Source: Thermofilaceae archaeon (GTDB lineage Archaea; Thermoproteota; Thermoprotei; Thermofilales; Thermofilaceae). From it: a DNA stretch of 64,000 nt. Numbering within the stretch: position 1 is the stretch's first letter; each line of letters begins with the position of its first letter. The translations under genes and the position numbers were made by a program. The DNA lies in the NCBI GenBank assembly GCA_025057995.1, contig JANXEW010000001.1, positions 403,327-467,326 of the forward strand, written 5' to 3'. The notes beneath the pieces are model-generated. The model searched no databases, was not told where the DNA came from, and worked only from the letters and a program-made list of their open reading frames with translations. This document shows, one piece after another, positions 8,875-15,305 of this stretch.

Positions 8875-11800
8875 TTACCTACCAGTAGACAGTTTTAGAG
8901 AAGCTAAGGGGTGGACGTGGAAGGTCTCGATGGTTAAGGATGTGATGCTCGCTTTGTCGCTGACTACGTGTACCATTACGGTTACGCTGTTCTCCCCTTC
9001 TCTAATGAGAGGTTCAGGAATATAGAAGTCTGTCTGTGGCCCCTCGCTAACGAACCTGCCGATAAACTGTCCGTTGAAGTAGAGGAGCATTCTTACTCCT
9101 TTCGCTTCAACCTTCAATTTTAGAGGGGCGGCTACTCTAGTCCCGGGTTTCACTGTGAACGTACCTTTAAGCCAAACTAAACTGGCTTCCATATTCATTA
9201 AGTCGAGTGGAAGGCTTGTGGGAATCCAATCTTTAAGTTCGGTTTTCTCCTTGTACCAGCCGCCGGCTAAGCCTAAGGTTCCGGCTGCAACTTTCCAGTC
9301 TCCTTTTACCTCTAGCCTATACACTTTAACTTTAACGTTTCCACGCGGCAGCCATTCACCAGCTAACGCTAACTCGTTCTCACCTTCAGTTAAGTGATCC
9401 GTAATATCGACTGGACCTAGGTAGACGCCAAGGAACCTCTTATTGACGAAAAGCAACGCTCGCGTGGTGAAGGTGAGAATATATCGTCCCTCCTTCTTTT
9501 CCAAGTTAAGTTTTTTAACGTAAAGCCCACCTCCATCAATAGTTTCAACTATTTCACCTTTCTTTTCCAGCTGAGGGTCTTTAAGAAGCTCGAGAAGAGG
9601 CTTCGGGTCGTTTAAGAACTGTGTGAAGCTAAAATCCCTCCCGTAGGGGATTGTGAAGCGTACGCGCAACCAGCCTTTAAGCTCCTCTTCACGAATCTTT
9701 CCAAGGTAAACGCCACCTATTATGCCGTTAGGCACGAAGAGTTGACCGTCGTTCGGATGACCCGTCGACTCCAATAAAACTACAAGCTCGTTAACCCCTT
9801 GCTTCAATGCCTTTGAAGCGTCCACCTCTAAGCTGTGGTAAACGGACGCTAGCGGGACTCCATTTAAGACGGCGCTCGCGAAATCGTTAAAGTAACTGAT
9901 GTAGAGAGTTTTATCCCCTACAATGTCCTCTGCCGTCGAATTGAACCTTATCAAGTAGGTCGCGTAACCGTTATCGAGGATTCCTATTCTCTCAAGCGGA
10001 GTACTAGGTTCAACGTCTCTTCCAACGAGATACCCGTCCTCACGCTTTAAAAACAAACCTACCGCATTTATAGAAGGTCCAGCGGCAGCTGGTGTCAGAA
10101 CCTCTAAACGGTAGAGTTTGTTTACGATCGGAGTTAGAGAGGTTTCAAAACCGTTCAAGAGAGCGCTGGTTAAAGGTTGTAGGGTGTAGATGAGTGCGGG
10201 ACCCGCACTCTTTTCATCCATCTCCATCTCGAGCTCTAGTCCGCTTTCGGTTAGGGAAGCCTTGCCGATAAAGTAGATGTTAGAAATTATTACAAGCGGT
10301 TCTCTAAAGTCGTCGATAAGCCAAGTCCTCCCAGCTCTAAACTTGGAAGTCGCTACTACAGTCATTGTGTAACTACCTCTTTTCAGAACAGTGATCGAGT
10401 CAAAGTCCCCGTGAGTGAACGTAACGACTACCTTGGTATCACCTTTACGTATAACGTTCACCCCGCTGCTAAACTCTATATCCACGACGTCGTCAGCTTC
10501 AACAGCAAATCCTCCTTCCTCACCTGGATTACCGTACAGTACTAGGAGTACATCATTCCCTTTCACTAATTTCAAAAGGGGCTCAGACGCGGTGTAAAGT
10601 AGCTTAAATGGAGTGCCCGGTATCCTATAGTTTAAGATAACGAGTTTAGCGTTTCTAGTTGGAAGAGGTATTGAGCCAGCGTAAGGTACCACTTCATCCC
10701 CGTACTTCAGCTTAACCGTAAGAAGCTGATCGCCGAGGTTTCTTAACACTGTTAAGACGCTACCTTCTTCTCCAACTCTCGAGAAAACTTCAACGTTGGG
10801 CGCTGAGACTTGAACAAATCCTTCAGAAGGTTTCGTCGAAACTAGGAGATCGTTGAAGGTGCGTGTGAAAAGTGCTACCCGCTTAATTGCGTAGTATCTT
10901 TCACGCAAGTATCCCCATTCGCTTATCGCAGCTTCATAGTCATACGTGGTAGTGATGTATTTTCCAGTGTAGTAGCCGGGGTTTGTACCGCCGTGGAACA
11001 TGTAAATGTTAACAGCGTTAACTCCTAGACCGATGGTAGTTTTAATCAAGGTCTCAGTCCAGGAAGCGGGGAAACTGCCTCTACTGGTAGGAAGAGGCGC
11101 ACCGAAAGTCGAGAACCATCCCCCTTCAAGCTCCATGTGCATCTTCGGCATACCAGGTTGCGTTCTCACGTAGCTCCGGACTTTCGCGTCGAAACCTGAT
11201 ATGTCCCAAGGTGAAGGGTAGTCGTCGATGGTGTTTATGATAGTCGTCCCTTCCAAGTGCCAATCCTCGTTAGTGACTATGGGTAGATCGTCGACATGCT
11301 TCCTAGCTAGCTCGTAAAGCTTCAACAGGTAGTTTGCATCACCCCAGAAATACTCGTTCTCCACCTGCACCATAACTACGGAGCCTCCTCTCGTTATCGA
11401 GTGTCTTGTTATGATCGGAAGTACTGTACCGTACCACTTTTCAGTATAGGCTATGTAAGCTGGATCTAGCGACCTTAGGACGGTAGCCTTCGCGTAAAGC
11501 CAGTTGGGGTGCCCCCCACTATCCCACTCCGAGCAGATGTAAGGGCCAGGTCTAGCTATTACGTAGAGACCCAAGGTCTCCGCCTCCCTGATGTAGCCCT
11601 CCAAGTCTCTACTGAAAGCCGAAGACTCGTAGAAACTCTCAGTCAACTCGTCGCCGAAGAGCTTTGCACCCTCGCTCGGTTCATGCCAGTTCCAAGCTAC
11701 GTAGCTTGCTACAGCATTTAAACCCGCGCGCTTCGCTTTCAGGAGCCTGTCAAACCATAGATGCTTCGGGATCCTGAAATAGTGCATTTCGCCGCTAAAC

Positions 11801-11967
11801 AAGAATAACGGTTTACCTTCTACATTGAAGAAGCCGTTTTGCTGTAATATAACCTGTGTCATGGGACCATACCACCTCACACGCAAATATCCAGGGATGA
11901 ATAAAAAGGCTAGCACGATCGCTGAAATTACAACAGCTTCCATAAACTTCTTTCCGAATTCTTGCAC
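8875..11967 (-). CDS. Membrane-anchored GH35 beta-galactosidase
   Basis: An N-terminal uncleaved signal/anchor helix (AVVISAIVLAFLFIPGYL, residues 11-28) places the enzyme outside the cell. The GH35 barrel follows: FSGEMHYFRIP, the proton donor E205 in VQVENEY, the nucleophile E279 in MELEGGWF (five residues before W, as in E-F-Y-T-G-W), and MFHGGTNPGYYTG...ITTTYDYEAAISE. The C-terminal half (about 400-1030) is beta-sandwich, with galactose-binding-like jelly-roll domains. At 1030 residues it is longer than typical bacterial GH35 enzymes. It would release beta-linked galactose from external oligo- or polysaccharides. The start is GTG 11967, 26 bases from a TATA box on the minus strand. Confidence 0.93.
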   Translation of the reverse strand: MQEFGKKFMEAVVISAIVLAFLFIPGYLRVRWYGPMTQVILQQNGFFNVEGKPLFLFSGEMHYFRIPKHLWFDRLLKAKRAGLNAVASYVAWNWHEPSEGAKLFGDELTESFYESSAFSRDLEGYIREAETLGLYVIARPGPYICSEWDSGGHPNWLYAKATVLRSLDPAYIAYTEKWYGTVLPIITRHSITRGGSVVMVQVENEYFWGDANYLLKLYELARKHVDDLPIVTNEDWHLEGTTIINTIDDYPSPWDISGFDAKVRSYVRTQPGMPKMHMELEGGWFSTFGAPLPTSRGSFPASWTETLIKTTIGLGVNAVNIYMFHGGTNPGYYTGKYITTTYDYEAAISEWGYLRERYYAIKRVALFTRTFNDLLVSTKPSEGFVQVSAPNVEVFSRVGEEGSVLTVLRNLGDQLLTVKLKYGDEVVPYAGSIPLPTRNAKLVILNYRIPGTPFKLLYTASEPLLKLVKGNDVLLVLYGNPGEEGGFAVEADDVVDIEFSSGVNVIRKGDTKVVVTFTHGDFDSITVLKRGSYTMTVVATSKFRAGRTWLIDDFREPLVIISNIYFIGKASLTESGLELEMEMDEKSAGPALIYTLQPLTSALLNGFETSLTPIVNKLYRLEVLTPAAAGPSINAVGLFLKREDGYLVGRDVEPSTPLERIGILDNGYATYLIRFNSTAEDIVGDKTLYISYFNDFASAVLNGVPLASVYHSLEVDASKALKQGVNELVVLLESTGHPNDGQLFVPNGIIGGVYLGKIREEELKGWLRVRFTIPYGRDFSFTQFLNDPKPLLELLKDPQLEKKGEIVETIDGGGLYVKKLNLEKKEGRYILTFTTRALLFVNKRFLGVYLGPVDITDHLTEGENELALAGEWLPRGNVKVKVYRLEVKGDWKVAAGTLGLAGGWYKEKTELKDWIPTSLPLDLMNMEASLVWLKGTFTVKPGTRVAAPLKLKVEAKGVRMLLYFNGQFIGRFVSEGPQTDFYIPEPLIREGENSVTVMVHVVSDKASITSLTIETFHVHPLASLKLSTGR

Positions 11968-11988
11968 AAGCGTAAAACCTGATTCACC

Positions 11989-11998
11989 TTAAAATATT
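11989..11998 (-). promoter_or_regulatory. TATA box for the GH35 gene
   Basis: On the minus strand TATTTTAAGG is centred about 26 bases upstream of the GTG start at 11967. It lies back-to-back with the plus-strand promoter of small RNA locus 2, some 40 bases away, so both units share one divergent control region. Confidence 0.55.
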
Positions 11999-12032
11999 CT
12001 CAGTAGAAACCATCTGTAGCCTGACCGAAAAA

Positions 12033-12040
12033 TTTAAATA
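12033..12040 (+). promoter_or_regulatory. Strong BRE/TATA promoter for small RNA locus 2
   Basis: ACCGAAAAA followed by TTTAAATA is a textbook archaeal BRE plus TATA box. The predicted start, 24-26 bases from the TATA centre, falls at 12060-12062, exactly where the terminal stem of the RNA begins. Confidence 0.7.
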
Positions 12041-12060
12041 GGATGTTTCAATTTAAACAT

Positions 12061-12230
12061 GAGGGCAGTCTACCCCAAACAACCCCCGTCGTACGCAACA
12101 CACGCTAATCCCGATGTAAGTGATTCCATTGCGCTCCTCGAACTATGCCGACCGCTGAACGTTAACGTCTTTGCGGTCGGCGAGGGGAACCCCCGCGGGG
12201 GACAGGGGGAAATAGGCTGCCCTCCTGTTT
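12061..12230 (+). ncRNA. Candidate structured RNA 2 (about 165 nt, unknown family)
   Basis: GAGGGCAGTCTA (12061-12072) pairs with TAGGCTGCCCTC (12213-12224) over 12 positions with one G-U. Inside it are C-run/G-run helices (CCCC and CCCCC at 12073-12087 with GGGGG and GGGG near 12197-12209), CGCAA/TTGCG (12094-12133), CTCCTCG/CGAGGGG (12134-12187) and the 9-bp hairpin GCCGACCGC/GCGGTCGGC (12147-12181). A strong promoter fixes the 5' end and CCTGTTTTTCC follows the 3' strand as a likely T-rich terminator. The 63-aa ORF in this stretch is probably spurious. It does not show the conserved 5S, SRP, RNase P or tRNA sequence blocks. A mobile inverted-repeat element is the main alternative. Confidence 0.7.
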
Positions 12231-12288
12231 TTCCTTGCGAAGTCGTTTAAGGGGAAAAGCAGATATAGGTATAGCATCTGCTTGTAGC

Positions 12289-12501
12289 GTGATAAGTCTA
12301 GCCGGGATCTTTCAACTGCTGTTGGCTCTGTTGTTGATTGTTCTCGGGATCATTGTCATAGTCTTCCTAGTTAAGTTGTTCATCGTCCTGCTGCCAGCCG
12401 CTATAGTAGCTCTTATAGTCTGGTTTTTGACGAAGAACGAGCTGTTAGCCGCTATAGCATTCCTCGTCATTGCAGCAATATCTCTCTTTAAACTGTTGTA
12501 G
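12289..12501 (+). CDS. Small membrane protein, unknown function
   Basis: The ORF track begins at a TTG at 12235, close to the terminator of RNA 2; the GTG at 12289 gives a cleaner 70-residue protein, MISLAGIFQLLLALLL. It has two or three hydrophobic helices (residues about 5-30, 31-45, 50-69) broken only by FLVKLF and TKNE, so it is an integral membrane protein. It stops 10 bases before the next gene, whose start has a GGTG site overlapping this stop, suggesting co-transcription. No family is recognised. Confidence 0.6.
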   Translation: MISLAGIFQLLLALLLIVLGIIVIVFLVKLFIVLLPAAIVALIVWFLTKNELLAAIAFLVIAAISLFKLL

Positions 12502-12511
12502 GGTGTCTCGC

Positions 12512-13624
12512 ATGGGTTTACAGTTCTCGGTCGAACGGCTTGAGCCCGATACTTTCAAAGTGGCGGCCATCGAAGGAGGCGTCAACGTAAGCTGGCTTTA
12601 CGTGATCGACGTACTCCTCCATTACAGTTCCGCGAAGGTAAAAGTAGGAGGCGTCGCCGGAGTGTACACGCCTCGAGAGTATAGGGGTAGAGGGTTTTCC
12701 GCTGCCACTCTCCGGTACGCTGTAGAGTGGATGAAGGGTCAAGGCTACCCCCTGACTGCTCTCTTCGGGATCCATGAGTACTACCATAAGTTCGGTTACG
12801 CGACCTTCATGGGTGAGCATACTGTGACGATGAGCTTGAGGGACTCTTCTAGAGTTGAGTCAGAAGACCTAGATTGGGAGATATCCGACGACAGCGGGTA
12901 TTTCAAGGAGGAGATCGCTGGAATCTATGAGACAACCAACGCTCTCTGGATCGGAGCGAGAGTTAGAGACCCCTCTACTTGGCCGGGCTTTAGAAAAGGG
13001 GTCTCGTGGGAGCATCCGGCTAAACCGTTAGTGTTGAAGAGCTCCGGGAGGGTTGTCGCATATGCTGCGTTCGAAAGGTGGCCGAGCCCGGAAGAGCTGC
13101 TTGTCGCAGAGGTTGGAGCGAAGGGCCATAGCGTAGAGCTCTACAGATCTCTTCTCAAGGTCCTTTACAAACTAGCCCTCGAGGAGCGTAAGAGCCACAT
13201 AAAGGTTCACGCGCCTCCCGACCATCCTTTCACGCGATTAGCCAAAGTTTACGGCTGTACCGTCGAAAGCTTCTACCCGTGGAGCGGGGGCGGTATGGCT
13301 CGTGTAACCAGGCTGAGAGAACTACTTGAAGCCATAAGGCCAGAGCTTGAGTTGAGGTCGAGAGACTTGGAAGGGTGTGTGACGATAAGGACGGGGGGAG
13401 AAGAGGTTACGTTAAGGTGCCGTAGAGGAGACGTGGACATCGAAGAGGGAGGTTCTTCAACGAATATCGTAGAGCTAGACCCGGGCGAAGCCGCCCAACT
13501 GGTATTAGGCTACAGTGACTTCGTCAGGATGCAGAGCAGGTCCAAGGCGCAGGGTAGCTTGAAAATCTTATCAACGCTTTTCCCAAGCGGAGAACCTTAC
13601 GTGTGGCAGCCGGACAGGTGGTAG
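12512..13624 (+). CDS. Two-domain GNAT N-acetyltransferase (Eis-like)
   Basis: I start at ATG 12512 (MGLQFSVERL), not the ORF-track ATG at 12470, because GGGTG lies 7 bases upstream and the extra 14 residues overlap the previous gene. The N-terminal GNAT fold shows the acetyl-CoA motif GVYTPREYRGRGFSAATLRYAVEWM and then FGIHEYYHKFGYATF. A second GNAT-like half follows, and the last 100 residues resemble an SCP2-like domain (VTIRTGGEEVTLRCRRGDVDIEEG), which is the Eis/COG4552 plan. Substrates in archaea are unknown; Eis proteins acetylate amines such as aminoglycosides or lysines. Confidence 0.85.
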   Translation: MGLQFSVERLEPDTFKVAAIEGGVNVSWLYVIDVLLHYSSAKVKVGGVAGVYTPREYRGRGFSAATLRYAVEWMKGQGYPLTALFGIHEYYHKFGYATFMGEHTVTMSLRDSSRVESEDLDWEISDDSGYFKEEIAGIYETTNALWIGARVRDPSTWPGFRKGVSWEHPAKPLVLKSSGRVVAYAAFERWPSPEELLVAEVGAKGHSVELYRSLLKVLYKLALEERKSHIKVHAPPDHPFTRLAKVYGCTVESFYPWSGGGMARVTRLRELLEAIRPELELRSRDLEGCVTIRTGGEEVTLRCRRGDVDIEEGGSSTNIVELDPGEAAQLVLGYSDFVRMQSRSKAQGSLKILSTLFPSGEPYVWQPDRW

Positions 13625-13649
13625 ACGGCCGTATATTTTATAAAAAGAG

Positions 13650-15305
13650 ATGAGGCGTCCCTGCATGGATCCTGAGGGTTTCGTAGTCCTAGTGGCTATG
13701 GAGATCCATCTCGACAACTTGCCTACCTACGCTGGCGGTTTGGGGCTTCTAGCTGGGGACCTCTTGTTCTCAGCTGCAGACTTGAACTACCCCATGGTTG
13801 GAGTTACGCTGCTTCACGACAAGGGCTACGTTTGGCACGATGTAAGCCAGGGTAAAGTCATCGACCACGAGGAACCTTACAACCCTCTTGAACATTGTGA
13901 AAAACTCGACTTGAAGCTTAGGCTTGAGCTTAAGACAACCCCCATACACCTTTCTGTTTGGCGTTACAACGTTAAAGGGATACGAAGGGAAGTACCAGTC
14001 TATCTTCTAGACGCGAACGTGCCGGAGAACCCTCCTCAACTCCGGTCATTAACGTCACGGGTGTACATTGAAAGCAGTTGGGGGGAGAGGCTATTGAAAG
14101 AGCTCATCCTAGGGTTGGGAGCACTACAGTTGGTTGAGAAGCTTAGGTTGCCCGTCTCAAAGTTTCACCTCAATGAAAGCCACGCAGGTTTTCTTGCGGT
14201 GGAGTTAATTAAGAGGAGCGGTAACTTGATGGACGTAAAACGGAAGGTGGTCTTTACTACTCATACTCCTCTCCCCCACGGCCACGAGGAGTTCGAATAC
14301 AACCTTGTTGAGAAACACTACGAAGTTCCACAAGTAGTTAAGGAGGTTAGCCCAGGTAAGCTTAAGATGACTAGATTGCTTGAAGCAGTCTCAGGCTACT
14401 ACAACTGCGTCTCCCACAAGTTCAGCCTGGTACACAGACTCATCTTCCCCGGATCCGATCCCGAGTACATAACGAACGGCGTACACCACGTCAGATGGGT
14501 GTACAGTAGAGTGGCAGACTTCTACGACGAGAGGCTGCCCGGTTGGAGGGAGGAGCCTGGAAAGTTAACTTACGTAGTAGCCCAACCTTTAGAAAAGGTT
14601 TTAGCTGTGAAACGTGCTTGTAAGACAGCGTTAGTTGAGTACGTCAACAGCTGGGCATACTCTAATGGAACCTTCCAAGCCAGGGCGTTTACGGTAGCCG
14701 CCAGGAGGAGGATTACAGGCTACAAACGTTTAACGTTAATTCTCCAAGACTTGGAGCTACTAGAGGAGTTGGCTAAAAAACATGGTTTACAGCTGGTTTT
14801 CAGCGGTACTGTACATCCCGCGGATGGAAGCGGTAGAGGGGAGCTCTCCAAGATTCTAGATTTGGCTTCAACGCTCAAGCATGTGAAAATAGCGTTCATC
14901 GGAAAACGTGGTGTTAACCTTGAGAAACTTGTAGCAGCGGGCAGTGATCTGTGGCTTCACACGCCTAGACCGCCGTTCGAGGCTTGCGGGACGAGTTGGA
15001 TGCGGGCAGCCCTCAACCTCACGCCGACTCTCGCTTCAAGGGACGGGGGAGTACTTGAGGCTATAGTGGATGGCCACAACGGATGGCTGTTCGGCAGGAA
15101 CGTCATGCTGCCCAACGAGCCATTAGATGATAAAGAGGAAGCTGGAGACATGTACGCGAAGCTGAAGGAGGCTATTGAACTCTATTATAGTAATCCTAAA
15201 GCTTACGCGTTAATTTGCGCTAGGAGTACCGCGACCATAGCTCCCTACTTTAACAGCCATAGGGCTCTTCTCGAGTACGTAGCTAGGGCCTACGTTCAGC
15301 CATGA
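13650..15305 (+). CDS. GT35 alpha-glucan phosphorylase-like protein lacking the PLP lysine
   Basis: The family fits from end to end: LPTYAGGLGLLAGDLLFSAADL, HLNESHAGFLAVEL, TTHTPLPHGHEEF, ITNGVHHVRW, the phosphate-site motif RRRITGYKR and EACGTSWMRAALN. In glucan phosphorylases the last motif reads GTGNMK or GTSxMK, and that lysine forms the Schiff base with pyridoxal phosphate; here it is R452. The enzyme may therefore not be a classical PLP phosphorylase. At 551 residues it is short, as archaeal members are. The ATG at 13650 is in the ORF track, but TATATTTTATAAA at 13632-13644 would place a leaderless start at the in-frame ATG 13665 (MDPEGFVVL), which I find more likely. It overlaps the next gene by ATGA. 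Confidence 0.85.
   Translation: MRRPCMDPEGFVVLVAMEIHLDNLPTYAGGLGLLAGDLLFSAADLNYPMVGVTLLHDKGYVWHDVSQGKVIDHEEPYNPLEHCEKLDLKLRLELKTTPIHLSVWRYNVKGIRREVPVYLLDANVPENPPQLRSLTSRVYIESSWGERLLKELILGLGALQLVEKLRLPVSKFHLNESHAGFLAVELIKRSGNLMDVKRKVVFTTHTPLPHGHEEFEYNLVEKHYEVPQVVKEVSPGKLKMTRLLEAVSGYYNCVSHKFSLVHRLIFPGSDPEYITNGVHHVRWVYSRVADFYDERLPGWREEPGKLTYVVAQPLEKVLAVKRACKTALVEYVNSWAYSNGTFQARAFTVAARRRITGYKRLTLILQDLELLEELAKKHGLQLVFSGTVHPADGSGRGELSKILDLASTLKHVKIAFIGKRGVNLEKLVAAGSDLWLHTPRPPFEACGTSWMRAALNLTPTLASRDGGVLEAIVDGHNGWLFGRNVMLPNEPLDDKEEAGDMYAKLKEAIELYYSNPKAYALICARSTATIAPYFNSHRALLEYVARAYVQP

Follow-up and report, generated by a model that had tools for sequence, protein, structure and literature searches.

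In Thermoproteia, only a small number of structured RNA families are known beyond tRNA, rRNA, RNase P, SRP, and guide RNAs. Guide RNAs for rRNA modification, H/ACA or similar, are common in hyperthermophilic archaea, and HgcC is an orphan archaeal ncRNA represented in Rfam. The literature searched contained no description of the Thermofilaceae RNA considered here; the one Thermofilum data set it yielded is that of T. adornatum (PMC10148824).

The RNA was found in a window of 64,000 nucleotides (64 kb; genome G000), where an earlier note had proposed a structured RNA, 165 nt long, that is linked to a promoter and belongs to no recognised family. Conservation, covariation, and the lack of an Rfam match uphold this proposal, and the ends of its terminal stem P1 set the length at 164 nt (12061-12224, plus strand). 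Comparison with related genomes confirmed a real, lineage-restricted RNA family that is absent from Rfam 15. The RNA itself is almost certainly real, since five other genomes keep its promoter spacing and its fold despite changed letters.

Homologues and phylogenetic range

Five homologues were identified, all within the Thermofilaceae, so that the support set for the family comprises six sequences (G000-G003, G006, and G007). When 40 related genomes were searched at the DNA level, a single weak match (E 1e-7) emerged, in G001 (Thermofilales archaeon RSNS8), a member of the same genus, and a full syntenic copy was seen in the sequence around it. The copies in G002, G003 (Thermofilum sp. KUA_Bin21), and G006 were located via the small-membrane-protein gene that lies downstream of the RNA. 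A covariance model built from these five copies (R1, including G000) retrieved the copy of G007 (Thermoprotei archaeon B17_G15), which was not among its inputs and belongs to another genus and another genomic setting, with an E value of 7e-10. R1 identified six carriers among 81 genomes of the class, and a second model built from all six copies (R2) identified the same six among 398 genomes of the phylum. The carriers span three genera, and the RNA measures between 157 and 166 nt in all of them.

No homologue was found in the Thermofilum-like genus g7, complete genomes included, which we infer to be Thermofilum in the strict sense. The sensitive family search and the search of the wider phylum added only matches with E values between 2 and 10, judged to be noise, and a pattern derived from the RNA gave no match in viral contigs. 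Being absent from g7 and from the greater part of the family, the RNA is not a universal housekeeping RNA.

Each carrier has one strong match, i.e., the RNA is not repetitive within a genome. The 12-bp inverted terminal arms recall a mobile element with terminal inverted repeats (MITE), a reading contradicted by the single copy and the compensatory changes in the stem, and further by conserved synteny and the fixed TATA spacing; we regard it as extremely improbable.

Fold and covariation

The segment 12061-12235 has a minimum free energy (MFE) of -76.1 kcal/mol, whereas its dinucleotide shuffles average -55.6 (z -4.8) and none of 200 was as stable; the G001 copy also folds more stably than its shuffles (z -3.6). 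Covariation was assessed in a six-sequence alignment that was hand-adjusted with the helices in mind (a bulged base in P1 of G003, and the registers of P6 and P3). Its G006 row contains an error of copying between P4 and P1, which leaves the letters of P1, P3, and P6 unaffected. The permutation tests of P1, P3, P4, and P6 were computed from the strand sequences. In a model-fitted alignment 14 of the 35 predicted pairs show double changes, a count biased to the R1 structure because the alignment was made from R1.

The 12-pair terminal stem reported to begin at 12061 is present and belongs to the MFE fold. Its strands are GAGGGCAGTCTA (12061-12072) and TAGGCTGCCCTC (12213-12224); across the six sequences 71 of 72 cells are paired and 11 of the 12 pairs show compensatory double changes. 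None of 2000 column shuffles was as good, and the true strand assignment was unique in its pairing level among 720 permutations of whole 3' strands (1/720). The 9-bp arm P6, formed by GCCGACCGC (12147-12155) and GCGGTCGGC (12173-12181), shows pairing in 46 of 47 cells, with double changes at five pairs and 2/720 permutations as good. P3 pairs CCCCC (12083-12087) with GGGGG (12197-12201) in five sequences and CATAC with GTATG in G006, which amounts to three double changes, and it appears in the MFE folds of G000, G002, G006, and G007. This evidence is weaker, as a single sequence differs and 120 of 720 permutations are therefore equally good. Compensatory change in the homologues thus backs P1, P3, and the 9-bp arm.

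P2 joins CCCC (12073-12076) to the G-run at 12205-12209, which together with position 12210 forms a GGGGGA block invariant in all six sequences. P2 (CCCC/GGGG) is pairable everywhere and nearly invariant, so covariation neither supports nor contradicts it. P4 is variable (24/720 permutations as good). According to the alignment, the junction (12088-12146) consists of a small, weakly conserved TAC..GTA hairpin, a single-stranded stretch that carries a CGCTCA-like motif in the homologues, and the 5' part of the arm P5. The junction hairpin is paired in 22 of 23 cells, with 4/720 permutations as good, and on this comparative evidence both it and P4 are plausible. In P5, CTCCTC (12134-12139) pairs with GAGGGG (12182-12187) in the MFE fold; P5-like pairing is confined to genus g1 and is weak in the other genomes. 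The block CCCCCGCGGGGG (12190-12201) is identical in five of six homologues.

Among the interior helices named earlier, the 9-bp hairpin, the CTCCTC/GAGGGG pairs, and the C-run/G-run helices were recovered, whereas CGCAA/TTGCG exists in G000 only. Two local alternatives were discarded. Partition functions prefer the long-range P3 over a local CCCC-CGCG-GGGG hairpin in G000, G002, and G007; they favour a shifted P3 in G006 and, by energy alone, other pairings in G001 and G003. A local 5' hairpin CCCCGG/CCGGGG was seen in G001 and G003 only.

Promoter and genomic context

The BRE/TATA element noted ahead of 12061 was confirmed as TTTAAATA (12033-12040, plus strand), with TTAAATA starting at -27. 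In every one of the six genomes TTAAATA starts 27-30 nt ahead of the first P1 base (-27 in G000, -29 or -30 in the five homologues), at a background frequency of 0.05-0.22 per kb in the same stretches. An archaeal TATA box would be expected at this distance from a transcription start. The locus thus combines a covarying fold with a promoter of its own, two of the features expected of an independent structured ncRNA gene. Overlapping ORFs vary in position, strand, and length among the genomes, and a protein-coding reading of the RNA locus was ruled out as no ORF is consistent.

As had been observed, the RNA gene and the GH35 gene (8875-11967, minus strand) are divergent; the conserved neighbour, in five of six genomes, is a downstream gene (12289-12501, plus strand) whose product, a hydrophobic protein of about 70 aa, belongs to no Pfam or NCBIfam family. 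Homologues of this small protein were found in 14 of the 31 related genomes searched. Downstream of it, positions 12512-15305 (plus strand) hold a GNAT-family gene and, after it, one for alpha-glucan phosphorylase; the row in G001 likewise comprises the RNA, small-protein, GNAT, and phosphorylase genes, and that in G003 does without the GNAT gene.

The small-protein gene lies 35-64 nt downstream of the RNA on the same strand in G000-G003 and G006. This arrangement, together with a T-run after the stem in G000, would suit a 5' leader that acts in cis as a riboswitch or attenuator, in which a signal detected by the folded RNA would govern read-through into 12289-12501. However, an AT-rich, TATA-like box precedes the start codon of the small-protein gene by 22-29 nt in all five genomes where the two genes adjoin (about 26-28 nt in the window), an arrangement that matches leaderless mRNAs in archaea. 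In G007 the RNA stands alone between two transporter genes, away from the small-protein gene, and many genomes without the RNA encode the small protein. Nor is a terminator conserved. The earlier note's CTGTTTTT does follow the terminal stem, but the T-run that could serve as a terminator (12228-12232) has a clear counterpart only in G007 and is not a general feature. The box of the downstream gene and the setting in G007 suggest that the RNA is probably not a leader of the small-membrane-protein gene, and we consider this alternative rather doubtful. Together with the fixed TATA spacing and the inconsistent ORFs, they favour a separate transcript.

With the two genes syntenic in five of the six genomes, there is some room for a link in cis or for one resembling OLE RNA, in which the RNA would bind the neighbouring small membrane protein as part of a membrane-linked RNP. 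All six carriers also encode the small protein, which speaks for such a partnership. It is nevertheless unlikely, given that the two genes are apart in G007 and the protein is common where the RNA is missing; moreover, the protein is hydrophobic nearly throughout and offers no evident RNA-binding part, and the RNA has no Rfam match. Comparison among the genomes shows the family, its fold, its promoter spacing, and the ability of the RNA to stand apart from its usual neighbour.

Assignment to known RNA families

The earlier note had called for a comparison with Rfam and for a search for conservation and covariation in related genomes. The latter revealed the strong covariation described above, and the former gave no known-family match at any useful threshold: Rfam 15 had no match at the gathering score in the 64-kb window, none at E<=10 for 11950-12350, and none over the RNA in the five homologue loci. 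The scan at E<=10 is also the result that bears on C/D box RNAs. ARAGORN detected no tRNA.

A highly diverged member of a known family (RNase P, SRP, or another Rfam family) was suggested by a length near that of type T RNase P RNA (model of 208 positions) and by an RF00373 search of G000 that at first gave nothing. The archaeal RNase P models RF00373 and RF02357 do not match at the RNA, however, and separate RNase P RNA genes are present elsewhere in G001, G002, and G003, with a piece of one at a contig end in G000. The RNase P identity was rejected on these grounds. SRP RNA genes lie elsewhere in G001, G002, G003, and G007, and the SRP model RF01857 (about 300 nt) has no match at the RNA; an SRP identity was rejected in view of the separate genes. 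Divergence from a known family is accordingly very improbable. In G001 (L059/L099) and G002 (L061/L098), the RNase P RNA and SRP RNA genes occupy opposite strands and are separated by no more than about 200 bases.

The hairpin arms and the conserved single-stranded stretch would also fit an H/ACA or similar guide for rRNA modification. Yet no Rfam family was matched at E<=10, the ACA box is not conserved (an ACA precedes the last G-run in G000 only), and complementarity between the junction and the rRNA operon regions was no better than that of shuffles in four genomes. The rRNA guide was rejected for this lack of complementarity, and a guide function of any such kind is highly unlikely.

Proposed function

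We consider it probable, at roughly three chances in four, that a structured ncRNA of about 164 nt is encoded here by a gene of its own and most likely acts in trans as an RNP scaffold. Transcription from its own archaeal BRE/TATA promoter would begin at about 12061. The two ends of the RNA would pair in P1 and so be closed and protected; P1, P2, P3, and the variable P4 may stack as a rod leading to the junction, with its small hairpin and single strand, and on to a long P5/P6 arm. The closed ends and the long rod, as modelled, suggest an RNA that is stable at high temperature. As a scaffold or regulator in trans, it could bind its partners at the GGGGGA bulge region, at CCCCCGCGGGGG, or at the CGCTCA-like junction motif, which are candidate binding sites. 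More tentatively, the RNA may found a class of archaeal RNP that is functionally new, distinct from guides, RNase P, and SRP and so far known only from some Thermofilaceae; it might serve, for instance, as a regulator associated with the membrane or bound to RNA polymerase.

With one copy per genome, a fixed promoter, and a fold that covaries unusually well, the RNA persists in three genera yet is missing in others of the family, which makes it a clear target in the search for new RNPs or regulators of archaea. Transcriptomes can be searched for it with the alignment and the covariance models, which would also permit an entry in a family library.

Comparison with known systems

With HgcC-type orphan ncRNAs the Thermofilaceae RNA shares the character of a GC-rich, structured hyperthermophile RNA with no known function; it has no sequence or structure match to them and differs in lineage and architecture. 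Archaeal RNase P RNAs of types A and T (RF00373, RF02357) also have a closed terminal stem, and type T is of similar length, whereas their models do not match the RNA and the homologue genomes carry separate RNase P genes. OLE RNA, whose partner is the membrane protein OapA, is likewise a structured RNA whose gene adjoins a membrane-protein gene in most genomes. The Thermofilaceae RNA is far smaller, unrelated, and not always adjacent to the protein gene, and the protein is widespread without it. Finally, 6S RNA is bacterial and gave no match, and the archaeal RNA polymerase differs from that of bacteria; its likeness to the proposed fold lies in a rod, a large open junction, and a second arm.
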